Below, in pieces: positions 2,595 to 23,895 of a stretch of 42,013 nt of DNA. Source of the stretch: a virus; the IMG/VR virus record IMGVR_UViG_3300037358_000204, positions 1 through 42,013 of that record; one strand, written 5' to 3'. A program made the translations under genes and the position numbers. The notes below the pieces were generated by a model. That model was given only the letters and a program-made list of their open reading frames with translations. It made no database searches and had not been told where the DNA came from. Position 1 is the stretch's first letter, and each line of letters begins with the position of its first letter.

Positions 2595-4505
2595 TTAAAA
2601 CGCCGGGCTTCGATACGTCACCGTCTGTTGCACCGAGCCGTTGTTGACCACGTAGACGGCCGCCAGTTGGACAACGGGAGACGAGGAAATCTCGTCCGGA
2701 TCAATCGAGTCATCCAATCCCGTCGGCTTGACGGTCAGCAACGGCGAACCGGACGGCGCCTGCCCGGGCGTGCCGGTGTGCCCGACGTAAATATCGTGCG
2801 CGGGCGGCGAACCTGCGCCTTTGCCGGACGTCTCCTTCGGATGAGTCGTCGGCAGCACCTGTTCGCCGCCGGTCAGGATGCCCGTCACCCGCTCGGCCAG
2901 CGCGCCGATCACCCGGTCGCGCGCGGCGCGCAGGTGAGCCACCATGTCCGCCGGCGAAAGATGCTTCGTCGGCCCGATGCGCAGGGTCGTCGCGCCCGTG
3001 GCCAGATTCTCCGTCACCACGTAAATCTGGGCATTCATCGTGGTCCATTCGCTCCGGCCGCCGGTCAGGTTCAGCACCTGCCCGGCAAACGGCCCGCCGC
3101 TGTCGCCCGCCTCTTCTTCCACCATGCTGAAACTGCCGTCGTACTGCAGTGGCGCCAGCAAATTGTAGTAGTACGCCGCCAATCCCGGGGCGGGCAGCGG
3201 GTCACCCGCGATGAAACCGCCGATGGATTGGTACGTCTGCGAGGTTGCGTCCGTCGTCACCACTTTTACCGACAAGGCCTTGCCCGTGACGTGGTTGACC
3301 ACCGTGTTGCCGGCGTCGTCCACCGTCGTCTCGTCGTAATTGAATAACGCCGACGCATTCGCCTCGCTGGCATGCACGTCCGTCATCCAGCCCGCGATCG
3401 AGCCTGTCTGCAATTCGTTGCCGTAAACGGTGTCGCCATCGTTGACCGGATTTACCTGCCCGCTGCTGTCCACGACGCTCAGGTTGGAAATCGCGGCGTC
3501 GCTCAACTGCGGCAGTTTCTGCTGCCACCACGCCTGGTTGTTGGCATCCAGCCCTGGGGCGGTCACCTCCTGCGTCAGCCACGTGTAGCGATTGCCGGTC
3601 AAGTCCACCGTCATCACCAACGCCCCCGCTTGCACCTCCGAGGCGTCCGCCGGATACTGGTCAATGCTCTCGAAAAGTTGTTGCAGGCCCTGGTAGGTGT
3701 TAACTTGCCGGTAATGGATGGAAACCACCGGCCGCTGCAAGTCGTAGCGCGGCGTGATCTCAATTTCGCTCGCCGGGGCGCCCACGCACGGCAGCGAGAC
3801 CGGCGCCAGCGCACTGCGCGGCTGGATGTTCAACGTCGGCGGCGAGGTCGTATAGTCGAACCACGTGATCGCGTCCGGATGCCAGCGCAATGCGCGCTTG
3901 ATCACCTCCGCGATGGTCAAATCGCTCCCCGCCTCGTCGGGCACCTCGATTTCGGTGCCCACCGCGCCGAGCTGCAGCGGCAGATTCGCGCCCAGCGCGT
4001 ACGTCATGGCCGATTCGATCTGCGTGCCCGTGTCAATTAAATCACCCAAAACATCCGCAAACAAAATGACGTGCGACTGCGGCATTTGCGTGGCGGTCGG
4101 GCCGCCAGCGGACGGAAACAGACACCAATACTGCTGGTAAACGACCTGCTCCAGCCACCACCATGGGCCACTCACCACATATTGCACGCCCTCGGCGCTC
4201 GGCCGGCCCATTTTCGGCGTCTTCGTGACCACGCCCTGAAACCACACTACGCCGCTGCGCTTGATGGACAGCATGCTCTGGTAGACGAAAATCTCGTCGG
4301 CGTCGAACGCCACGCCCTCGAGCCGCAGCACGCACTGGTCGGCCGCCTGGCTCAAGCGCGTGATTTCACACCCCGTGATGCCCCACGCCGCCAGCGTCTT
4401 CGTCACCGGCGTTCCGGTTATCGGATTGCCGCCGTTGTTGCCTCCTCCCGTCCCGGCTGCCGTGATGCCGAGATATTCAAGTGTCCAAATTTGGCTGATG
4501 GGCAT
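2595..4505 (-). CDS. Tail hub / baseplate protein
   Basis: This 636-residue structural protein lies near the end of the tail module. The N-terminal part (about residues 45-240) has the look of phage tail hub proteins (gp27/gpP-like fold). It begins with a segment carrying ITRLSQAADQCVLRLEG, then a description of an excitation-like strand (VWFQGVVTKTP), then a Trp-rich stretch (GPWWWLEQVVYQQYW). The rest is long and rich in Thr, Asp and Gly, with a proline- and glycine-rich linker near residue 570. No sheath gene is present, so in a siphovirus it would sit at the tail tip as hub or attachment protein. The start at 4505 follows a repeat-filled gap with no Shine-Dalgarno. The family call rests on visual similarity and position. 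Confidence 0.7.
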   Translation of the reverse strand: MPISQIWTLEYLGITAAGTGGGNNGGNPITGTPVTKTLAAWGITGCEITRLSQAADQCVLRLEGVAFDADEIFVYQSMLSIKRSGVVWFQGVVTKTPKMGRPSAEGVQYVVSGPWWWLEQVVYQQYWCLFPSAGGPTATQMPQSHVILFADVLGDLIDTGTQIESAMTYALGANLPLQLGAVGTEIEVPDEAGSDLTIAEVIKRALRWHPDAITWFDYTTSPPTLNIQPRSALAPVSLPCVGAPASEIEITPRYDLQRPVVSIHYRQVNTYQGLQQLFESIDQYPADASEVQAGALVMTVDLTGNRYTWLTQEVTAPGLDANNQAWWQQKLPQLSDAAISNLSVVDSSGQVNPVNDGDTVYGNELQTGSIAGWMTDVHASEANASALFNYDETTVDDAGNTVVNHVTGKALSVKVVTTDATSQTYQSIGGFIAGDPLPAPGLAAYYYNLLAPLQYDGSFSMVEEEAGDSGGPFAGQVLNLTGGRSEWTTMNAQIYVVTENLATGATTLRIGPTKHLSPADMVAHLRAARDRVIGALAERVTGILTGGEQVLPTTHPKETSGKGAGSPPAHDIYVGHTGTPGQAPSGSPLLTVKPTGLDDSIDPDEISSSPVVQLAAVYVVNNGSVQQTVTYRSPAF

Positions 4506-4592: not shown

Positions 4593-5360
4593 TCAGCCGA
4601 TCCTCGGCTGCCGCCGCCGCCCGTCCCAATTCTCGCCTAACTTCGGCGATCGCGCGCACAGGTGGTAGCAGATCGCGCTCGGCAGCAAACGCCGCTGCGA
4701 GGCCGGCCATTGCGCCGCGAACAGTACGTCGTCATGCGCGGCCGAGCCCAGCGTCCACGGATAATCATGCTGGCAGCGCGCGTGCCAGAGCTGGAAGAAG
4801 CCGATCGGCACGTAGCCGTCGAGCGTGTCCACGTAACGCGACGCCACCGGCCGCGGTGCCTGCGCCGTCACAAACGCCCCGCCACTATGCTGCGGCACCC
4901 CCAACCCCGCGCGCGGCTGCAGCACGTTCGCCCATTCCTTTCTCCCGATTAAATCCACCCGGTCGGCGCCGTAGAGACATTCCTGATCGAGATACGTGTG
5001 GTTGAACAGCAGCCGCCGGAAGTTATCCGGCAGCGCGATGTCCGCGTCCAGATGCAGCCGCCAGCCGTGGTATTGGAAGCGCGCCAGGCCCCGGTTCAGC
5101 GCCGCGCCCTTGTTGAATCCGCGCCCGTTCTTGCGGAACAAATCCGTCTGCACGCAGATCGCGCCGTGCTTGCGCGCGACCGCCTGCGTGGCCTTGTCCT
5201 CGTGGCTCGTCACCACAATGAAGGTGTCCACCTGCGGGTGGTTCAGCGGCAGCGTGGCGTCGAGGAGGTCGTCGAACCCCACGCACGCCGTCACCGCTTC
5301 GAGGCGCAGGGCCTCGGCGGCGTGCGCGGTGCTATTTAGTGATTGATTGTAGGAGTTCAT
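4593..5360 (-). CDS. Family 2-type glycosyltransferase
   Basis: This 255-residue protein probably transfers a sugar from a nucleotide-sugar donor. The N-terminal strand TACVGF, the strand FIVVTSHED near residue 48, the GRGFNKGAALNRG stretch near 79-91 and the metal-binding DAD motif at 105-107 (LHLDADIALP) are the usual landmarks of a GT-A fold. A later segment (GYVPIGFFQLWHA) fits the acceptor side. No membrane segment is visible, so it should act in the cytoplasm. Its ATG lies one base after the stop of the upstream membrane protein gene, so the two are probably translationally coupled. A glycosyltransferase inside a tail module is unusual. It could modify fibre proteins or the host surface antigen, but the substrate cannot be read from sequence. 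Confidence 0.82.
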   Translation of the reverse strand: MNSYNQSLNSTAHAAEALRLEAVTACVGFDDLLDATLPLNHPQVDTFIVVTSHEDKATQAVARKHGAICVQTDLFRKNGRGFNKGAALNRGLARFQYHGWRLHLDADIALPDNFRRLLFNHTYLDQECLYGADRVDLIGRKEWANVLQPRAGLGVPQHSGGAFVTAQAPRPVASRYVDTLDGYVPIGFFQLWHARCQHDYPWTLGSAAHDDVLFAAQWPASQRRLLPSAICYHLCARSPKLGENWDGRRRQPRIG

Positions 5361-5361
5361 G

Positions 5362-6345
5362 TCAAGTGGAGAGCGCGACCTTGAGGCCGGCCTGGATGCC
5401 GGCGAGGAGCGTGCGCGCCTCGGCGACGGACTGGTCGGCGGTCAGCAGCGGGGCGTCCGCTTTCAGCCGGGAATCGAAGTCGGCCAGGACCACCGCAAAG
5501 ACGGCGTCCACCGCTTTCTGGTTGGCCGGTGAAACCTCGGCGTTGAGATCGGCGATGAGCTGCGCGGATGAGGTATGGCCGTTCGCGCTCGCGACGGTGA
5601 GCGCTTCGTAGGCCGCCTGCAAATCGGGCCGCAGGCTCGGCTTCTCCGCCAGGGCGACGGCCGCGCCGAGCGAGGTCGCCGTCTGCAAATTCGCCGCCAA
5701 CTCCGCCGGCGTCTGCGCGATGAACGCGGCCGTCAAATTGGCGGCAATGTCGCCGCCGGTCGTCGTGTTGCTGATTGCCAAAGTGCCATTGCCGGCTGCC
5801 TGGGTGCCATTGGTGGACGCGCACCCCGCGAGCACGAATGCCACCACCACCGCCGCGATCAACGCCAGCAGCTTCACCTGGGCGAAGCCTGATCTCCGGT
5901 CCGGCGCGCGCTCCTCCTTGTCGTCGGCGTACCCCAGCATCCACGCCACGATAAACGCGACGACAATGCCCAAGACGATCTCGATGGCCGGCTTCGCCTC
6001 CTTATTCCAGTCGGGAATGAACAGCGTCACCGCCGCGCCAAAGAGGGCGACGAACAGTAGCAGATTGACGCCGATGAATCCGCCCGGTCCATGCGCCGGG
6101 AATGGCACCGGGGCGCTGGGAGCCGCGGGTGTTTGCGCCGCGGTCACCGCCGCCGTTTCGGCAGCGCGGCGATGGAGGATGGCCACAATGACGCCGACGA
6201 GTCCGATGAGAACTTGAAAAAGCGTCGGCAATTGGTTGGCGATGGCGGAAGATTCCGCCGGCGTGAGGACGCCGTGTTGCACCAGGGCCGAGAGCCCCAG
6301 CGTGGCCGCGACAATGAGCGCGGTGATCGAATCTTTGGTGTTCAT
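5362..6345 (-). CDS. Multi-pass membrane protein with internal lipobox (lysis candidate)
   Basis: This is a 327-residue membrane protein. It has a weak hydrophobic N-terminus (residues 6-22), a clear membrane helix at about 40-57, a Pro/Ala linker, helices at about 91-111 and 121-139, and a further hydrophobic stretch at 157-174 ending in a lipobox, LAGC, with Cys at 175. After the lipobox come four N-x-T sequons in about 25 residues and then an Ala-rich soluble domain. Val157 is encoded by GTG (5877). A start there would give a 171-residue lipoprotein with a normal signal peptide. The gene may therefore encode a holin-like membrane protein and, from an internal start, an outer-membrane lipoprotein. 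A role in lysis is an inference from topology. I recognise no named family. Confidence 0.65.
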   Translation of the reverse strand: MNTKDSITALIVAATLGLSALVQHGVLTPAESSAIANQLPTLFQVLIGLVGVIVAILHRRAAETAAVTAAQTPAAPSAPVPFPAHGPGGFIGVNLLLFVALFGAAVTLFIPDWNKEAKPAIEIVLGIVVAFIVAWMLGYADDKEERAPDRRSGFAQVKLLALIAAVVVAFVLAGCASTNGTQAAGNGTLAISNTTTGGDIAANLTAAFIAQTPAELAANLQTATSLGAAVALAEKPSLRPDLQAAYEALTVASANGHTSSAQLIADLNAEVSPANQKAVDAVFAVVLADFDSRLKADAPLLTADQSVAEARTLLAGIQAGLKVALST

Positions 6346-6375: not shown

Positions 6376-7398
6376 TCACCGCACCCGCCGCGCCCGGATC
6401 AGCGCCGAGATATTCCCCCCGCCGCTCACGTAAATCACGTTCGCCAGCAGATTGACCGTCGTGTTCGTGGTCACCTGCCATTGCGCCACCGGCAACGGCC
6501 CCGCGTCCGGCTGGGACGACCCCGCGCCGCCCGTGAAGTTGCCCTGGGTGTTGCTCGTGTTGCTGCTCAACCCGAACGTCTGCCCGCTGATATTGGTGAC
6601 GGTGGTGGTGTCCTCGTACCAGCCGGTCACATCCCAATCGCCCGGCGTCAGGGTGACATTGCAAACAATCGCGGTACTTCCCGAGGTCAGCGTGAAATTC
6701 CCCGTCAAATTACTTGCCACTATCAGCTCCCCGATGTACCCCGCCGGGGCCGCGTTCCCGGTGGTGTTGCCCGCGTAATTGTACGCGGTCAAATTTCCAC
6801 TAAAGGTTCCACCGTTAGCCAAAAAATTAACACTGTTTCCCAACCAAAAGGTGCCATTGCCAGAAAGGTTGATGCCGTAGTTTTGCGGCCCAAGGCCGTA
6901 TGCCGCAATCCCCCATGAGTTAGCGGTGCTACCCGCACCGATGTAGTGAAAGGCAGAAGTAAATAAATTATAATTAGAAGCAGCTACGCCGAAATATTGA
7001 TAAGCTCCTGTCCCTCCCGATGCGCTGGTGGTTTGGTTGGGGGAGAGAAACTCGGCCACTACCAGGGAAGACGCGCTTTGATTGGCGCTCGTGGTGAGGA
7101 CAGAGCCATTAAAAGTCAGGTTCGCCGTTCCTGTAAAATTACCCGCGCTCGCCACCTGCACATCCGTATTGCCTCCTCCTGGCGAAGACCCCGTAGGAAT
7201 GGTGGCATTGGAATAACTCGTCGGTACGCCGTTCGAGCCATAGGTGATTACCGGCACTGTGGTAGAATTACCAACCGCCCCAGCCGTCAGTGCGCCGGGC
7301 GGCGAAAAATTGCCGCTGAAAGTACTGGCAACCGCACCCTGGCCATGAGCCAGAGCGCACGCCAGCAGCGAAATCAGAATGAGAAATATCTTTTTCAT
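6376..7398 (-). CDS. Tail-fibre-like protein with Sec signal peptide
   Basis: This 340-residue protein starts with a classic Sec signal peptide (MKKIFLILISLLACALAHG, cleavage expected before or after QG). The body is rich in Gly, Asn, Ser and Thr, with many N-x-S/T triplets (NSTT, NATI, NFTG, NLTF, NQTT). The last 110 residues contain GYIGELIVASN and LTPGDWDVTGWYEDT, a pattern typical of phage tail-fibre C-terminal domains. The start is a plain ATG without Shine-Dalgarno. It lies 13 bp downstream of a second signal-peptide-bearing gene, and both sit after the tape measure gene, so a virion fibre is the best guess. A signal peptide on such a protein is odd, because phage fibres normally assemble in the cytoplasm. 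Confidence 0.75.
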   Translation of the reverse strand: MKKIFLILISLLACALAHGQGAVASTFSGNFSPPGALTAGAVGNSTTVPVITYGSNGVPTSYSNATIPTGSSPGGGNTDVQVASAGNFTGTANLTFNGSVLTTSANQSASSLVVAEFLSPNQTTSASGGTGAYQYFGVAASNYNLFTSAFHYIGAGSTANSWGIAAYGLGPQNYGINLSGNGTFWLGNSVNFLANGGTFSGNLTAYNYAGNTTGNAAPAGYIGELIVASNLTGNFTLTSGSTAIVCNVTLTPGDWDVTGWYEDTTTVTNISGQTFGLSSNTSNTQGNFTGGAGSSQPDAGPLPVAQWQVTTNTTVNLLANVIYVSGGGNISALIRARRVR

Positions 7399-7411
7399 GG
7401 TAGAGATGGGA

Positions 7412-9583
7412 TTAAGGCGCGGTTAGCAGTGGCAAAACAATCTCGTAAAATTGATCGGCGGGCATGACATAGCTCGATTCCCAAATCTCAATGTCCGCGC
7501 CCTGGCTGGCGCTTTGTCCGTTCCAAAAGAGCCCGTCGTTCGTGAGAAGGTATTCGGTGGTGGTGTTCTGCCGCTGAACCGGCTCCAGGTCGTCAAAACC
7601 GAGAAAATTTGCCTGCGCCGGATAACCCGCGTACCAGGTTGCGTTCGTCGTCAGCGTTGAATCCAAGTTCAGCACTACCGCTTTTCCCGCCGTCGAATTG
7701 CCCGATTGCGGCTGTACGATGAACCAGGTATTGCCCAGCTTGGTTAGGAACGGCCCTTCGCCGTCGTTACTGGACAATGCCGTATTCCGACCCAGCAGGG
7801 TGATATTGGCGGTCGTCAAATTCGCGGAGGAAAATGTCCAAGCCGAAGTGTATAGCGTGGTGTTCGCGGTAAACCCTTCCGTGAGGGTCGCGGTCTGCAC
7901 GCCATTGATCACCTTTAGGTCTCCCGGGTAGCATTGCGACGAACTGTTTCCCGCTGCCAGGAGATTAAATGGAATCAGTGTCGGATTCTGGAAAACGTGC
8001 ACGCCATAGCGGATGTCCTCGCCGGCGGTGACGGTCGCATAATAGGCTCCGATGTTCCCAGTAAACCCACTCACCCCCCAGTCACTTTGGTTGGTGAATA
8101 CAATGCGCGACTCGGGAATCGGCGTCCCGTTCGGGCCTGCGGGGCCATCCACGCGGTCATAGATCATCGAGCAATCGCCATCGCCTAAAACGTCGTTGCC
8201 GGTGTTCCACGCGCTATTTGGGCGCAAGTCCGCCAGCCAACCGGTTTGCACAATATTCCCAGTATCAGGATTCCACTTAAAGACCACGTTCTCACAGGCT
8301 GAAACCGGATAAGCCGGTGCCGGAAACATCATCGTCGCGGTAAAAAATCGGGAGTTCCCCGTCGGCGTTCCATCTTCGCAAAAGTAGCCCCGGAGATTAT
8401 CCACGCCCACGCCGCCGGCGTAGCCGTCCTGGAGGTGAGTTACCACGATATTGCCGCTCGCCGTGCTCGGAACAATCGCCGCCCGTATTGGGTGGATTTT
8501 CGCCAAATTTGCGGGCGTCTGGGCATCGAAGGCACCCCAATATTTCAGTTCCACCCCGGCCCCTCCCGGTGTATTGCTAATGGGCTGCGCTTTACCACCG
8601 GCCGGCTTTAGCCAGGCGGAAATAGCCCACCCGCTGTTCATCGCATAAATCTGCGCCGCCGTCGTCAAATTGCAGGCGTAACCACCCGCCGCCACGCTGG
8701 TATTTGCCATCGGATAACCGGTGCTGGGATTGAAAAATACGTCAGAGGTGTGCGCGGTCGAAAGGTTGCAGTAAAGTGAGATCGTGCCGTTGTACGCATC
8801 GTAGTAAGTGCCGAACCGGGGTGCGGTTAAATTGCCTACATTACCCACGTAAAAGCCGGTGAAAAAGCCCACGCCCGCGCCGGTCGCCACCGCCGAGACG
8901 TTCGCCGAGTCCTGAAAGAACGGAATCGTGTAGGTCTGGGCGGAGACAAAATCTTCCTCGTTTCCACCCGCGAAGAATGTCCCGTTGCCCCACCCCGCGC
9001 CGGTCGTCCAGGTACCGTTCGTGAGGGTAAGATTGGTCAGCCCGATATTTGGGTAAACCGGGCCGTTCAGAAAATCCTCGTCCTCGCACACCCCCTGCGG
9101 CGGTGCCGGGTCAAGCGCCTGCCTCACCCCCACCAACGACCACGTCCCGGTATAATTCGCGGGCGTGGTTGTGTTCGTCGGCGGCACGTAGCTTTCCAAA
9201 ATCGTGCTCAACCCCGTCACCCCGAACGGTTGAAACGCCACCGTCGCGCCCGTCAAATTCACGTTGCCCGAAAACACTGGCGAGCTCGCTGTCGCCACTC
9301 CGGTGACCGTCCCATTCCCCGCGCTCAGCGTGCCGCCGGCCAGGATGATCGAACCTCCACTCTTCACGGTGAAGTTCGTCCCGTTCCCCGCGTTCGCGCC
9401 CGTGTCCACCGTGCCGATGGTTTGGTTTCCGGTAAAATTGCCGCTCGTGAAATTCGCCATCACCGGCGCGGCCGCGCTCGCCGTCGGCGGCGTCCAGTTC
9501 TGCCCGCGCACCAGGGCCAGCGGCCAGCCCACCGCGGCGAAGGCCGCGAGGGCCAAGAAGAACAGGAGGAGATATTTTTTCAT
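7412..9583 (-). CDS. Large fibre-like exported protein
   Basis: This 723-residue protein has an N-terminal hydrophobic signal segment (MKKYLLLFFLALAAFAAVGW..., cleavage probably near residue 28). An Asn/Gly/Thr-rich repeat region follows (residues 29-110, six N-x-T sequons in the first 45 mature residues, units such as GNFTGNQT), then a long globular region. That region has strings such as FLNGPVYPNIG, DGDCSMIYDRVDGP and ESRIVFTNQSDWG, and ends in TTEYLLTNDGLFWNGQ. The distal part resembles a five-bladed glycoside-hydrolase-like or carbohydrate-binding fold, but I see no catalytic signature. Position between the tape measure and the second fibre-like gene suggests a host-recognition or depolymerase protein. 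The function is inferred. Confidence 0.7.
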   Translation of the reverse strand: MKKYLLLFFLALAAFAAVGWPLALVRGQNWTPPTASAAAPVMANFTSGNFTGNQTIGTVDTGANAGNGTNFTVKSGGSIILAGGTLSAGNGTVTGVATASSPVFSGNVNLTGATVAFQPFGVTGLSTILESYVPPTNTTTPANYTGTWSLVGVRQALDPAPPQGVCEDEDFLNGPVYPNIGLTNLTLTNGTWTTGAGWGNGTFFAGGNEEDFVSAQTYTIPFFQDSANVSAVATGAGVGFFTGFYVGNVGNLTAPRFGTYYDAYNGTISLYCNLSTAHTSDVFFNPSTGYPMANTSVAAGGYACNLTTAAQIYAMNSGWAISAWLKPAGGKAQPISNTPGGAGVELKYWGAFDAQTPANLAKIHPIRAAIVPSTASGNIVVTHLQDGYAGGVGVDNLRGYFCEDGTPTGNSRFFTATMMFPAPAYPVSACENVVFKWNPDTGNIVQTGWLADLRPNSAWNTGNDVLGDGDCSMIYDRVDGPAGPNGTPIPESRIVFTNQSDWGVSGFTGNIGAYYATVTAGEDIRYGVHVFQNPTLIPFNLLAAGNSSSQCYPGDLKVINGVQTATLTEGFTANTTLYTSAWTFSSANLTTANITLLGRNTALSSNDGEGPFLTKLGNTWFIVQPQSGNSTAGKAVVLNLDSTLTTNATWYAGYPAQANFLGFDDLEPVQRQNTTTEYLLTNDGLFWNGQSASQGADIEIWESSYVMPADQFYEIVLPLLTAP

Positions 9584-9595
9584 AAAGAGAAGGTC

Positions 9596-11296
9596 TTAAT
9601 AGTTCGCCAAATCCTGGATTTGGCCGGCCGTGTTCTCGTGGTTCTGTTCCAGTTGCGCGATGCGCCGCTCCAGCGCCCGCAGCGCGCCGGTGGTCGTCGT
9701 CACGGTCGTGCCGGAATCCATCGCCGCCGCCAGCCGGTTCAGCAGCCCGATCAGGTTTTCGATTTCCTCCGGCGTCGCGCCTTTGCCCTGCTCCAGCTTC
9801 GCCGCCGCGCCGGACACCGCCGTCGCCAGCCGCGCGTATTGGTTCTGCCGCGCGCCGAATTGCCCCGCCGTCTCCACGCCCGTCAGGTTGCCCGCGGCGT
9901 CGTGGGTGAAATCCTGCCGCGTCGGCTGCGCCCCGGCCAAGCCGCCGAGGATGGCCTGTAAAATCTGTCGCAGCTGCGCCTCCAGTTCCTCGCGTTGCGC
10001 CGCCGGCTTCGGCGCGGCCGCTTTCGCGCCCCGCGGCGTGCCGTCGTCATCGGCCTGGTTCTCGAAGGGGACCGCCTGCGCCTTCAACCGCGCCGCCTGC
10101 ACCTCGTTGCGCGCGGCTTGTTCATTCTCGGCCAAAATTTGCAATTGCTGGGTGAGCTGCGCGATCCCCGGCTTGTCCTTGCCGTCGCCGCCGCGCAGGC
10201 TTTGGATCACGGCGTTGCCCTGCTCGATCAATTTTTGGTAATCGGCCTCCCTGGCCGCGAACTCCGCGCGCATCGCCTCCACTCGTCGTTCCGCCGTCGC
10301 TTGGGCCTGCTGGGTGCTCGGGCCGCCGGGCAGCCCGCCCTGGGCGTTGGCCATCACCTTCGCCTCGCGCTCGGCTTCCTGCGCCCGCGCCGCCGTGATG
10401 TTTTCCGTCGCCTTCGCCATCACGTCCTGGGCGTGCGCGATCAATGCCGCCATCCCGGCCAGCCGCTGTTCCACGTCGCCCCGCGCCATCTCCGCCTCGG
10501 CCGCCTTCGCCTGGGCGTGCATCACGTCGCCCTGCGCGTCCCGTCCGCGCGCGGCGTCGTCAATGCCCTGGAGGTTTTTTTCATAGGGCGCTTTGATGCC
10601 CTCGATTTCCTCCGGGCTCGCCCCGCGCCGCTGCGCCGCCGCGACCGCCTCGCTCTCCTCGGCCTTCAGTTTCGCCTTGTTCAGGTCGTCCTGCGCCTTG
10701 GCCAGTTTTTCGAGCGAGCTTAAATAGGTTTCGCTGGCGGAAATAATTTCCTTTTGGTCCGCCAAAATCGCGTCATATTGGTCGCGCAAATCCTTCGCCG
10801 GGTCCTTCGCCGCCTCCGCCAGCGCCTTCCCCATCTGCTTCGTGTTTTCCGCGATCTCCTTCTGCTGGCCGGTGATGGACTTCGTCGCCGATTTCCACGC
10901 CTCGTCCAGCCCGAACACCGCCGCCACCACTCCCGCCAGCACCGCAATCGCCGGATTTTCCGCCATCGCAATGAAGAGCCCGCGGATGCCCATGCTCAGC
11001 AGCCGGATGCCGGGCAGCAGATTGCCCGACATCACCATGTCCACCCCGATCACGCCGCCCTCGACTTCGCGGAAGGCCCGCGCCAGCCGCGCGCCGCTCG
11101 CGCCCATTTCCTCCATGCTGCTGGCGCCGGCGCTGTTGCTCGCCGCGAAATTGCGCAGCCGGCCGAGCAATTCGTCGTTGATGCCGACGTAAATGCTCTG
11201 CTGCGCCTGCGCCACATTCCGCAGGTCGGCCGCCGCCGCCGGCGCGCCCACCACCTGCACCCCGATCTTCAAATTGCTGTCGGCTTCGTCGCCCAT
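9596..11296 (-). CDS. Tail tape measure protein
   Basis: This 566-residue protein has the normal make-up of a tape measure. The N-terminal domain ends in a hydrophobic block at about residues 103-130 (GIRGLFIAMAENPAIAVLAG). A very long Ala/Glu/Lys/Gln-rich coiled coil (about 135-420) follows, and a further C-terminal coiled coil ends in ALERRIAQLEQNHEN. Tape measure proteins fill the tail tube and set its length, and at about 0.15 nm per residue this one predicts a short to medium tail. It follows the tail-tube and tail-completion genes and precedes the fibre and hub genes, the usual siphovirus order. The ATG at 11296 follows an 88-bp repeat and hairpin gap. Confidence 0.85.
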   Translation of the reverse strand: MGDEADSNLKIGVQVVGAPAAAADLRNVAQAQQSIYVGINDELLGRLRNFAASNSAGASSMEEMGASGARLARAFREVEGGVIGVDMVMSGNLLPGIRLLSMGIRGLFIAMAENPAIAVLAGVVAAVFGLDEAWKSATKSITGQQKEIAENTKQMGKALAEAAKDPAKDLRDQYDAILADQKEIISASETYLSSLEKLAKAQDDLNKAKLKAEESEAVAAAQRRGASPEEIEGIKAPYEKNLQGIDDAARGRDAQGDVMHAQAKAAEAEMARGDVEQRLAGMAALIAHAQDVMAKATENITAARAQEAEREAKVMANAQGGLPGGPSTQQAQATAERRVEAMRAEFAAREADYQKLIEQGNAVIQSLRGGDGKDKPGIAQLTQQLQILAENEQAARNEVQAARLKAQAVPFENQADDDGTPRGAKAAAPKPAAQREELEAQLRQILQAILGGLAGAQPTRQDFTHDAAGNLTGVETAGQFGARQNQYARLATAVSGAAAKLEQGKGATPEEIENLIGLLNRLAAAMDSGTTVTTTTGALRALERRIAQLEQNHENTAGQIQDLANY

Positions 11297-12765: not shown

Positions 12766-13692
12766 TTAGGCCACGGTAAAGAGTTCCGCCAGCGCGTTGG
12801 TGGTCACGTTGCGGATGGTCTCGAAGACGAGCTTGTTGCCGCGGTATTTCTCCGCGCCCCAGGTCAGGCCGCCCGTGTTCACCGCCGCGTTTTTCAGCGT
12901 CACCGTCGGCGTCCCGCCAGTGGCCGCGATCACCGCGTCGTAGCCGGTCAGGTCGCTGCCCATCGCCTGGCCCGTCGGCAGCAGCGCCGCGTAGTTCGCC
13001 TCCGTCATGTTCACCGGCGTGAAGCTCACCCGCGCCAGAAACGACACCAGTTCATAGTCCAGCGTCGGGAAGACGTCGACCTTCACCGGCGCGATCTTGA
13101 GGTCCCACTCCACGTCAAACCCTTCCTGGTCGGCGTAGAAGGTCGTGCCGTTCCAGGTCAGCGTGTAAAGGCCGTTGTAGATTTGCGCGGCGTTGTACCC
13201 CGCCAGCGCGACCGCGCTGCCCACTGCGCCCAGCGAATAAAAATCGCCCGCCGCCGGCGCCGTGTAATCCGCGCCGGTCTTGATCAGCCCGGTGATCTCC
13301 AGTTCCTTCAGCATCGCCCCGCGCGCCGCCAGCTTCAGGCCCGGGAGCTTCGTGATCAGGCAGTTGGCCACCGTCAGCGGCGCGCCATTCACCGGCGTGA
13401 TGATCACCGGCTGGTCCGTGTTCGTCGAGAGCCGCGCGCCCACCTGCGTCGTCGCGTAGGGAAACAGCAGCGCCAGGTTGTTGTACTGGAGCGGCGTGAA
13501 CTTGATCTTCACCATCGCGTCCGTCACCCGCTTGCGCACCGGCCCCAGGCCCGAGGCCATCCGCATTTCGGTCTCGGTCACGAAGTCGGCGACAATGTCG
13601 CCCACGGAAAGCAAACTCGGCGGCGAGCTGGCGCCAAAGGCCAGCGACGCCGGCCCGCGCGGGATCAAAGTGCTGCGTGAAGGTTGGGACAT
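12766..13692 (-). CDS. Probable major tail (tube) protein
   Basis: This 308-residue protein follows the head-tail joining genes and precedes the tape measure by three genes, which is where the tail tube gene lies. It reads as two related beta-rich halves with motifs such as MVKIKFTPLQYNNLALLFPY and VSFTPVNMTEANYAALLP. The repeated [IV].FTP...NY..LLP pattern suggests an internal duplication of the tube fold. It has no membrane segment. There is no separate sheath gene nearby, which argues for a non-contractile tail. I do not recognise a named family with certainty. Confidence 0.72.
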   Translation of the reverse strand: MSQPSRSTLIPRGPASLAFGASSPPSLLSVGDIVADFVTETEMRMASGLGPVRKRVTDAMVKIKFTPLQYNNLALLFPYATTQVGARLSTNTDQPVIITPVNGAPLTVANCLITKLPGLKLAARGAMLKELEITGLIKTGADYTAPAAGDFYSLGAVGSAVALAGYNAAQIYNGLYTLTWNGTTFYADQEGFDVEWDLKIAPVKVDVFPTLDYELVSFLARVSFTPVNMTEANYAALLPTGQAMGSDLTGYDAVIAATGGTPTVTLKNAAVNTGGLTWGAEKYRGNKLVFETIRNVTTNALAELFTVA

Positions 13693-20548: not shown

Positions 20549-22321
20549 TTAGACCTTGGCCTCGACGGCCTTGAGTTGCGTTCCCCGCGCCACCGCCCCG
20601 CGCGCCGCCGCCCGCGCCAAAATCGTCTGCATCGCCCGCGCCCCCGCGTGCGATTGCAACACCTCCCGCGCCAGGTGCGGGAAATTCCCGGCCACCGCGT
20701 TGACGTTCGCCATCGTCAGCGGCGCGCCCGAATCGGCCAGCTTCCCGAGGGCCTGCGCCAGCGGTTTGAAATCCTCCCGCAGCCCGGCCGCGAATTTCTC
20801 CCGCGCCGCCGCGTCCTCCTCCGCCGTCGTGACTGGCGAACTCAGTGCCGCCGTGGCGGCATTCGCGCCTTCCTCCGCCGGTGTCAGCGGCTTTTCCAGC
20901 GCCTTCGCCAGCGGATTGCCCGGTCCCGCTCCGGCCGCTCCCTTTTTCCCGGGCATCGCGCCGGGCTGGTTCGGGTCCGGCGCCGTTGGCGCCGGCGGTT
21001 CGACTTCCAGCACGTCGCCGGGATCGTCCGGGTCCGGCGGCGTCAAATTCAAATCTTCATAGGCCGCCTTCTTCGAGACCGGCAGGCTCATCTCCGCCGC
21101 CAGTTGGTAATTCGCCCGCACCGCGCCCGCGTCGCGCCGGTCCGGCGTCAGGATGCGAAATTCCGCCAGCCGCGGCGCGTCCGGCCCGAACGCCCATTGG
21201 CGCACGGGGCGGCAAATTTGATCGTCCACCACCGCCTGGGCCCATTCCGCGTCCGCTTCCGTCAGTAAATCCGCCTCGTCGTGTTGCAGGCTCGCCCCGC
21301 TCGTGTTCACCCGGCTGTGCGTGCTCAGGTCCGCCCCGCGCCATTGCACCGTGAAACACTTGTCGCAGTACTCCACCAGCTTCGGGTAGGGCAGCTCGCC
21401 TTTCGCGTTCAGGTCAATCCCTTCGATCTTCGCATTGATCGAAAACAGCCCGATGAATTCCGCCCCGAATTCCTCCAGGCTCTTCGCGTCCTGCTCCCAC
21501 TGCGGCGTCCCCGGGTTCGCGTCCGTGTGGCCGACGATTCCGGGCATCCCGTTGCGCGAGCAATAAACCGCCCAGTCAATCATCGGATAATGCTTAAACA
21601 GGTAGTAGATCGCGCCGGCCCGCAGTAGCGGCGTGTCCCGCGCCGCCACCAGCCAGCCGTTCGGCTCCAACGGCTTCCCATAATAGCCGCCGAGCGTCGC
21701 CACGTACCGCAGTTCGCCGAACAGATTCTCAAAAAACCACGGGGGCGTGAACCGCGCCTCCAGCCCGAGCATCGGCGCGCCGTCGCTGGTCGTGCCGCTC
21801 TGTGGCGACCAGATCAGTTCGTGCGCCGAGTATTGCATCCCGATGGCGTCGGCCAGGTTCCGCAGCAGCATCGGCAACCCGCCGCGCTGGTTCAGATCGT
21901 ACACGTTCGTCGCCCGCAAATTCTCCAGCGTGTGCCGGAGCGTCGCGGCCTGGAGTTGCGCCTCCTTCGAGCGGTCCAGCGGCGCCACTTCCCAATCCAG
22001 CGCGGCGAGCGAGGAGTGCCGTTTTTCCCGCACCACCTGGAGCGTCGGGTCGTTCCGCGCCATGTCGAACCACATCTTCGTGCATAAGTACAAATACCCG
22101 CGCTCGAACTGATCGTGGTAATCCCGCACCTTCTTCGGCGTGAGGTCAAACAGCGGCATCAACTGCGTGCGGCGGTACAAATCCATCCGCTGCGCCGTGA
22201 TGATCGAGGCGGTTTTCAATTTCTCGCCCGCGCCCCCGCCGCGCCCTTGCGGCACGACTTCGCCGGGCGACGCGACCAGTTTCGCGCCGCCGAGGGCGTT
22301 GGGATCAGTGCTCGCGGCCAT
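20549..22321 (-). CDS. Portal protein (DUF935, Mu gp29-like)
   Basis: This is the portal ring through which DNA is pumped, recognised by the DUF935 pattern. Motifs include FERGYLYLCTKMWFDM, then VREKRHSSLAALDWEVAPL, IGMQYSAHELIW, GGYYGKPLEPNGWLVAARD and YCSRNGMPGIVGHTDAN. It ends in a helical, Ala-rich domain. I start it at the ATG at 22321 (MAASTDPNALGG, 590 residues). An upstream ATG at 22357 would add a signal-peptide-like MKKLFPLLFFLL encoded by AT-rich codons unlike the rest, so I think that part is spacer. The terminase gene ends just upstream, and the protease gene follows after a 58-bp gap. Confidence 0.9.
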   Translation of the reverse strand: MAASTDPNALGGAKLVASPGEVVPQGRGGGAGEKLKTASIITAQRMDLYRRTQLMPLFDLTPKKVRDYHDQFERGYLYLCTKMWFDMARNDPTLQVVREKRHSSLAALDWEVAPLDRSKEAQLQAATLRHTLENLRATNVYDLNQRGGLPMLLRNLADAIGMQYSAHELIWSPQSGTTSDGAPMLGLEARFTPPWFFENLFGELRYVATLGGYYGKPLEPNGWLVAARDTPLLRAGAIYYLFKHYPMIDWAVYCSRNGMPGIVGHTDANPGTPQWEQDAKSLEEFGAEFIGLFSINAKIEGIDLNAKGELPYPKLVEYCDKCFTVQWRGADLSTHSRVNTSGASLQHDEADLLTEADAEWAQAVVDDQICRPVRQWAFGPDAPRLAEFRILTPDRRDAGAVRANYQLAAEMSLPVSKKAAYEDLNLTPPDPDDPGDVLEVEPPAPTAPDPNQPGAMPGKKGAAGAGPGNPLAKALEKPLTPAEEGANAATAALSSPVTTAEEDAAAREKFAAGLREDFKPLAQALGKLADSGAPLTMANVNAVAGNFPHLAREVLQSHAGARAMQTILARAAARGAVARGTQLKAVEAKV

Positions 22322-22362
22322 GAGTAGAAAAAATAAAAGTGGAAAGAGTTTTTTCATGGCGA

Positions 22363-23895
22363 TCACGCCGCCGCCCGCGCCGCGCGTCCTCCCCCGCTCG
22401 CCGTCCGGTCTGTTCCGCGCCCCCAGACGCCTTCCCGGCGCTGGTCAAAATTCTGCCGCCGCCGCGCCGCCGTCCGCACCGCCCGCGCCGCAAACCGCTG
22501 CGCGTGGCTGCCCGCGTGCACCGCCAGCGCCAGCGCCCAGAACCGGTCCGCGTGCCCGCTCGCCTCGCCGTCGTGCTCCGCCACGAAGCGGAGGTTCCCC
22601 GCCGCCGTCGTCTCCTTGCGCACTTTCCGCAGGTCCGCGATCACCTGCCGGTCGTTCGGCACCCGCAGCGATTTGTCCTCGAACGCGCTCCGCACCGGAA
22701 AGGCGATCTGCTCCTTCACCGGCCCGGTGAACCGCAGCGCCTCGACTTTGTATTTGCTAAAGCGCTGCTGCGCCCGCTCCGCAAACTGCATTCCCAGCCC
22801 GGTCGCGTCCACGGCCGCCCGCCGCACCGGCAGCCGTTCCATCAGCTCATCGAACGCCCCTTCCTGAAACTCGAACGGCGTCCGCTCCAGTTCGATCACC
22901 ATCCGCGTCAGCAGTACGCCGCCGGTGCGCTCGATCAGCCACAGGACCGTCAGGTCGCGCGTGCGGCCCAGGTCCACGCCGAGAAATAAATCCGCGCTCG
23001 CCGCCGGCCACCATCCGGGCGCAAACAGCCCGCGCCCCGTGCTCGGCCAGCGCCGGAACCATGCCGGCGCCTCCCCGCGCCGCAGGTCGTCGGCGCCCTT
23101 GAACGTGCAGGGGTCAATCAAATCAAACGACAAAAACGCCGCCGCGTCGTCCGCCGGCTGGCACATGTATTCCTGCTGGAACGATTCCTCGTCCGCGCAC
23201 CCGGCCCGGATGAAGTTGAAATACTCGCCCTCATCCATCGCCTGGCGCTCGTCGTCCGCCGGCAGCGTCGCTTGCAGCTTCGCCAAAAAGCCCTGCTCCA
23301 GCGCGTCCGTCAGCGTCACCCGGTGCAGCGAAAATCCTTTCGGGTTCCCTTTGTGCCGTGCTTCGTTCACCAGCGTGTTGAAAAAATTCCCGCTCCCGCG
23401 GTGCGTCGAAATGATCTCCAGCTGCCCTCCCCAGGTGATGCCCGGATACGCGATCTCGTAGAGCGCGCGCGGGTTTGGGTGCAGCGCGAATTCGTCCAGC
23501 ACCCGCGGCCCTTTCTTCCCCGCCTGCGCGTCCATGTTCGAGGAGAGCGAGTTGATGCGCTTCCCGTTGGCAAATTCCAGCACCCGCACCGACCCGCGCC
23601 CGGGCTCCAGCAGGACTTCCCCCAGATCATCACTCACGATCCGCTGCTTGTTCGCCCAGAACTTGCAGTCTTCGATCAGGAGCCGCGCCTGCAAATCGTC
23701 CCGCGAGGTCACCCAAATGTCGAACTTCGCCTCCTCGTCCGCCGTCTTCTCCGTCGCCCGGTACGCCGTGCTCAGCGAGAGCCCGACTTGCCGCGCCTTC
23801 TCCATCAGCTTCAGCCGCGCGCCGTCGTCAATCCACCGCTTTTGATACGGCAGAAAGAACCCCCGCGGGGGCTTGATTTTGGCGCGGCCCGTCAT
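22363..23895 (-). CDS. Terminase large subunit (Mu gp28-like)
   Basis: This 510-residue DNA-packaging motor has an ATPase domain with a Walker-A-like KARQVGLS at 33-40, a strand IWVTSRD and Walker B VLDE at 132-135. Its nuclease domain has acidic residues in GVDLGRTRDLTV (Asp308), AVDATGLG (Asp363) and GHADRFWAL (Asp450). This arrangement is that of Mu gp28. Mu packages headful lengths that include flanking host DNA, so this phage probably does as well. The gene follows the gp27-like small subunit after a repeat gap and is followed closely by the portal. The Ala/Arg-rich C-terminal tail is low complexity. Confidence 0.93.
   Translation of the reverse strand: MTGRAKIKPPRGFFLPYQKRWIDDGARLKLMEKARQVGLSLSTAYRATEKTADEEAKFDIWVTSRDDLQARLLIEDCKFWANKQRIVSDDLGEVLLEPGRGSVRVLEFANGKRINSLSSNMDAQAGKKGPRVLDEFALHPNPRALYEIAYPGITWGGQLEIISTHRGSGNFFNTLVNEARHKGNPKGFSLHRVTLTDALEQGFLAKLQATLPADDERQAMDEGEYFNFIRAGCADEESFQQEYMCQPADDAAAFLSFDLIDPCTFKGADDLRRGEAPAWFRRWPSTGRGLFAPGWWPAASADLFLGVDLGRTRDLTVLWLIERTGGVLLTRMVIELERTPFEFQEGAFDELMERLPVRRAAVDATGLGMQFAERAQQRFSKYKVEALRFTGPVKEQIAFPVRSAFEDKSLRVPNDRQVIADLRKVRKETTAAGNLRFVAEHDGEASGHADRFWALALAVHAGSHAQRFAARAVRTAARRRQNFDQRREGVWGRGTDRTASGGGRAARAAA

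Follow-up and report, generated by a model that had tools for sequence, protein, structure and literature searches.

The accepted view is that phage tail fibres fold and are assembled in the cytoplasm and stay inside the cell until lysis. The locus described here raises the question of why two neighbouring genes of a phage tail operon, coding for fibre-like proteins of 723 and 340 residues, begin with Sec-type signal peptides, and of where their products would act if the host exports them.

Two fibre-like genes inside a Mu-type tail module

The window, i.e. the whole 42-kb IMG/VR virus record analysed here, carries on its minus strand a Mu-type structural operon in the order terminase, Portal_Mu, Mu-I-like protease, capsid, tail tube, tape measure, 723-aa protein, 340-aa protein, membrane/lipobox protein, glycosyltransferase-like protein, hub-like protein and a small last gene (Table 1). 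The plus strand codes for a MuB-like AAA protein and a Gam-like protein, and both ends of the window carry host-like genes (adenine deaminase, NHL-repeat protein). A search for relatives of the hub protein, covering 84,980 species of bacteria and archaea, found them nearly confined to Verrucomicrobiota, Kiritimatiellota and Lentisphaerota, so that the host of the window is probably a member of this group. The two fibre-like genes lie between the tape-measure-like gene and the hub, i.e. inside the tail module, and this place within a late operon argues for late expression. Their ATG codons stand 12 and 13 nt past the preceding stop codons, which makes both starts credible.

Table 1. Coordinates of the features discussed in the text, with the basis of each assignment
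Feature	Position	Strand	Basis
636-aa tail hub-like protein, the lineage marker	2595..4505	-	relatives across bacterial/archaeal species
255-aa GT-A/GT2-like glycosyltransferase, same operon	4593..5360	-	weak Pfam match (E=0.033); relatives at 68-73% identity in further phage contigs
327-aa membrane protein with a holin-like N-terminal half, a lipobox (VLAGC) in its interior and a sequon-enriched tail	5362..6345	-	sequence features
340-aa fibre-like protein, Sec signal peptide, 13 N-x-T	6376..7398	-	ORF
C-terminal C1q/TNF-like jelly-roll domain of the 340-aa protein (LTPGDWD...ARRxR); a homologue is the C-terminal part of 8vbx gp47, a phage tail fibre of solved structure	6379..6789	-	profile match, model
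Signal peptide region of the 340-aa protein, residues 1-24	7327..7398	-	signal peptide scoring
723-aa GNST-rich fibre-like protein, N-terminal Sec signal peptide, 23 N-x-T, 7 Cys	7412..9583	-	ORF
Six-N-x-T cluster of the 723-aa protein, residues 29-72, adjoining the signal peptide	9368..9499	-	sequon count
Signal peptide region of the 723-aa protein, residues 1-28, with cleavage predicted to follow residue 16 or a later one	9500..9583	-	signal peptide scoring, codon check
566-aa tape-measure-like protein, directly upstream of the 723-aa gene	9596..11296	-	inferred: its length and coiled-coil-like sequence, and a place with respect to the tube and hub genes that relatives share
Major tail-tube-like protein	12766..13692	-	blastp matches to proteins in this slot of six related loci
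Mu-type portal (Portal_Mu), the defining gene of the structural operon	20549..22366	-	Portal_Mu match

The 340-aa protein ends in a head domain (its last 137 residues) that has 149 relatives among viral contigs and matches the virion tail fibre of PDB 8vbx in a profile search (E=5e-25). The model of this domain (pLDDT about 90) resembles TNF/C1q-type lectins and phage fibres, BFVD fibre matches included. The C-terminal domain of BclA, the TNF-like lectins BC2L-C and PLTL and the chlamydial Pgp3 share the C1q/TNF-like fold (Foldseek E about 1e-3 to 1e-4), although these are cellular or plasmid proteins and the similarity is one of distant fold only. Closer counterparts are the tail fibre gp47 (8vbx) and Phimunavirus fibres such as that of CB5, whose head domain is homologous; unlike the window's protein, however, they have a longer N-terminal part and no signal peptide (the latter checked for CB5). 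The 723-aa protein has no convincing homologues among viral contigs, INPHARED, 388 genomes and the PDB, homology to a known fibre was not found, and an AlphaFold model of the protein alone (pLDDT 33) was discarded. In neither protein was an N-terminal virion-attachment domain recognised.

Signal peptides and their recurrence on fibre-type proteins

Signal peptides were called with our own rule-based scorer, not with SignalP. Both proteins show n-, h- and c-regions at a credible start, namely MKK, a markedly hydrophobic run and, after it, plausible sites of cleavage. Specifically, the 723-aa protein opens with MKKYLLLFFLALAAFA, followed by AVGW (peak 9-residue Kyte-Doolittle mean 3.1), and the 340-aa protein with MKKIFLILISLLACALAHG (peak 3.4); this arrangement had been proposed from the letters of the sequence, and the ORF coordinates, hydropathy peaks and start placement confirm it. 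The signal peptide codons of the 723-aa gene are, in our reading, GC-rich like the gene body, and the next in-frame ATG is M42, from which translation would leave a gap of more than 130 nt in a packed operon. None of 48 structural coding sequences of four Mu-like phages from other phyla has a signal peptide. The same scorer flagged the portal ORF of the window, which opens with MKKLFPLLFFLLMA (22321-22357, minus strand). This leader has AT-rich codons and a second ATG at residue 13 and is absent from related portals, so that the call was dropped in favour of a probable AT-rich leader, untranslated or accidental; its flagging is a warning against relying on the scorer alone.

A G/N/S/T-rich protein with a signal peptide occupies the same tail-module slot in 9 of 15 hub-related loci (L004, L005, L010, L013, L014, L016, L019, L020 and L021; for L004, L019 and L020 the scorer chose internal starts). 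The 15 loci belong to prophages of Verrucomicrobiota, Kiritimatiellota and Lentisphaerota and are those in which a related hub is present and the interval from tail tube to tape measure is covered. Classical fibre domains occur in the proteins of L020 (Peptidase_S74), L013 (collagen) and L004 (Gly_rich_2), and PHROG tail-fibre families are matched by those of L004, L013, L014 and L020. By blastp the GNST-rich bodies are unconnected with the window's proteins and, in nearly every case, with each other. Across 78 further Mu-portal loci of Verrucomicrobiota-type genomes, signal peptides are commoner on GNST-rich ORFs than in the background (16/30 vs 60/462, P=6e-7; the background includes flanking host genes), and many of the proteins combining the two properties lie 7.5-10 kb downstream of the portal, some of them clearly between the tube and tape-measure genes. 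Fibres with signal peptides are visible near lysis genes in several loci, with an association that is not significant (3/12 vs 2/30, P=0.13).

Other products with signal peptides were noticed among the loci examined. Small proteins of about 110-190 aa with signal peptides are encoded at L132:5804-6193, L135:7860-8252, L025:4024-4356 and L298:13319-13978, those of L132, L135 and L025 directly after the major capsid gene, i.e. in the slot of capsid decoration proteins. The viral contig L003 (1065-6563, 7269-19544) carries a run of glycosyl-/methyltransferase-like genes after a capsid-like gene, and then four fibre-like proteins with signal peptides.

The head domain leads to fibres of the same kind beyond this lineage. 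Among its viral-contig relatives, a Sec signal peptide opens 10 of 77 proteins and other N-termini open the remaining 67, the 77 being the complete proteins among the best 80 of the 149, a set that contains near-duplicates. Three cultured phages encode fibres with signal peptides, namely Burkholderia phage BcepC6B (gp19), Xanthomonas phage PBR31 (orf035) and Shewanella phage QDWS; the related fibres of CB5, PPWS1 and Mulvp2 have none. The BcepC6B and PBR31 proteins and the head-domain relatives with signal peptides match the PHROG 11393 fibre family, and they align solely to its C-terminal part (from about position 281-397 of 538), so that the N-terminal part of that family is missing from them. 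The QDWS fibre ORF (L245:5998-8061, 687 aa) is annotated only from an internal, late start, and an unrelated antisense gene is called over its 5' end. The three cultured-phage proteins resemble those of the window in combining a Sec signal peptide with a fibre-type body; they differ in lacking an N-x-T excess of that size, and their phages, hosts and bodies are different. The early suggestion that fibre-type proteins carry Sec signal peptides is borne out in the window, and such proteins recur in unrelated phages. Proteins with signal peptides tend to have more cysteines than their homologues without them (at least two in 77-80% vs 45%; Mann-Whitney P=0.05). Some carriers encode an additional canonical fibre or spike; the authors of the PBR31 paper take a separate tailspike as the receptor-binding protein, and searches of that paper brought up no signal peptide on orf035. 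A literature search found no paper on tail fibres with signal peptides as a class, and phage DGR targets are reported to be without signal peptides (PMC6199706).

N-x-T sequons and the neighbouring glycosyltransferase

The 723-aa protein contains 23 N-x-T triplets against 6.4 expected (3.6-fold; 0 of 2000 shuffles of its own composition reach 23), and the 340-aa protein 13 against 4.1 (3.2-fold over shuffles of its own composition). In both, the enriched N-T spacing is N-x1-T only, the reverse T-x-N is not significantly enriched, and internal repeats do not account for the excess; N-x-S is not enriched in the larger protein and weakly so in the smaller. Within the window, a clear excess is limited to these two proteins and to the post-lipobox part of the 327-aa protein (4 vs 0.8 expected), i.e. 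to three predicted exported products, and the two fibre-like proteins rank first and second among 271 unique fibre-like proteins. The six triplets counted beforehand in about 45 residues of the larger protein are exactly six, in residues 29-72, and the density goes beyond what the sequence-only reading had expected, standing above composition and above every other fibre-like protein examined. In the 340-aa protein, G-N-x-T makes up half of the excess, and turns of this type are a possible structural cause of the sequon excess, especially in that protein, where one sequon (NVTLTPGDWD) belongs to the domain consensus and is also found in fibres without signal peptides.

The machinery for glycosylation is a different matter. 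No STT3-type oligosaccharyltransferase is encoded on the contig, and none of the STT3/PglB type was found in the nearest sampled relatives, which were chosen by adenine deaminase and may not be the host of the window. Clear STT3-type candidates occur in the Verrucomicrobiota-type genomes L252 and L253 (E 9e-20 and 2e-13), which are not nearest relatives. The neighbouring glycosyltransferase has a weak glucosyl-3-phosphoglycerate-synthase-type similarity and gives only a weak GT2-type match, short of an HMW1C-type (GT41) cytoplasmic N-glycosyltransferase. Its relatives (68-73% identity; L298:7995-8744, L299:8001-8717, L300:2-610) belong to otherwise different phages, and in L298 and L299 they lie near membrane/holin-like genes. 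The 327-aa protein itself seems to be a fusion of a holin-like membrane part and a lipoprotein, whose counterparts in L299 appear as two distinct genes that precede the same glycosyltransferase. Three general explanations of the sequons were rejected: that they travel with export (other fibres with signal peptides have the expected N-x-T number), that PVC hosts generally have sequon-rich secretomes (among the sampled relatives, secreted proteins of Verrucomicrobiota have no excess), and that the glycosyltransferase accompanies sequon-rich fibres (its close relatives occur in phages without N-x-T-rich fibres nearby).

A proposed exported adhesin or decoy, and its alternatives

The reading favoured here, to which we assign a probability of about one half, is that the two proteins represent a class of tailed-phage products that recurs and seems not to have been described before: late-made, Sec-exported adhesins or decoys of the fibre type. 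They would be binding proteins, probably trimeric, in which a cleavable Sec signal peptide replaces the usual virion-attachment domain. Made late, together with the tail genes, they would use the host SecYEG to reach the periplasm or outer membrane, a step that is well supported by the predicted signal peptides, and would be released or displayed around lysis, where the C-terminal C1q/TNF-like head may bind cell-surface glycans. Their role would be that of an exported receptor-binding adhesin or, more speculatively, a decoy, masking receptors on the dying cell or on its debris, or excluding competitors, rather than that of an ordinary virion fibre.

A rather unlikely alternative is that they are true virion fibres or decorations, which would fold in the periplasm (with disulfides and perhaps glycosylation) and be added to virions once the inner membrane gives way at lysis. 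The fixed slot in the tail operon, the fibre homology (fibre domains, 8vbx, PHROG 11393), the higher cysteine numbers and the small proteins with signal peptides encoded just after the major capsid gene of relatives agree with this account, and L010, where the protein with the signal peptide is the sole fibre candidate noticed, would favour it. Against it, the signal peptide takes the place of the N-terminal part of the fibre family, some carriers have a further canonical fibre or spike, and we know of no tailed phage that assembles fibres by periplasmic folding and late addition. The sequence-only reading had instead considered surface proteins of the lysogen; these would be products of lysogenic conversion, expressed and exported in the lysogen as an adhesin or a superinfection barrier. 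The export signals, the lipobox in the neighbouring gene product and the precedent of lambda Lom, a protein with a signal peptide that is encoded in the tail region and expressed in lysogeny (PMC12309495), speak for this possibility, which we regard as unlikely given the tight 12-13 nt gaps inside a late tail operon; moreover, Lom is an outer-membrane beta-barrel, whereas the window's proteins are fibre-like and have no Pfam match to the Ail_Lom family.

Export itself could be illusory, if the hydrophobic N-terminus were a virion-binding helix or the start codons were misplaced, and the portal ORF of the window, which likewise opens with MKK and a hydrophobic run, gives this objection some weight. 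It is nevertheless quite improbable in view of the gap that a start at M42 would leave, the GC-rich signal peptide codons and the recurrence of such ends, with A-x-A cleavage sites, on otherwise unrelated bodies across phages. Lastly, the proteins may be exported and N-glycosylated at their sequons, by analogy with HMW1, an exported adhesin with many N-x-S/T sites that is N-glycosylated at many of them (PMC3012730). The excess has a direction and a specific spacing, and of the window's products only the three predicted to be exported show it; its two main carriers head the ranking of fibre-like proteins, and a glycosyltransferase gene lies next door. Conversely, STT3 is absent from the contig and the nearest sampled relatives, an HMW1C-type enzyme was not found in the window, where the neighbouring enzyme looks like GT-A/GT2 and has its relatives away from N-x-T-rich fibres, other fibres with signal peptides and the relatives' secreted proteins show no excess, and the G-N-x-T half and the domain-consensus sequon of the 340-aa protein may be structural. 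Glycosylation, which had been raised as a possibility from the sequons, is thus unsupported as regards machinery and is very doubtful, as is the composite proposal that the phage exports fibre-type receptor-binding proteins via the host Sec pathway, N-glycosylated at dense N-x-T, to act on or outside the cell envelope.

Returning to the exported adhesins or decoys favoured here, the recurrence of fibres with Sec signals points either to an extracytoplasmic route for virion parts or to a class of exported phage adhesins or decoys. The fibres with signal peptides of cultured phages, whose annotation says no more than tail fibre or structural protein, allow both readings to be tested directly. 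Where every fibre gene is taken to code for a receptor-binding protein of the virion, annotation or host-range prediction would misjudge such fibres.
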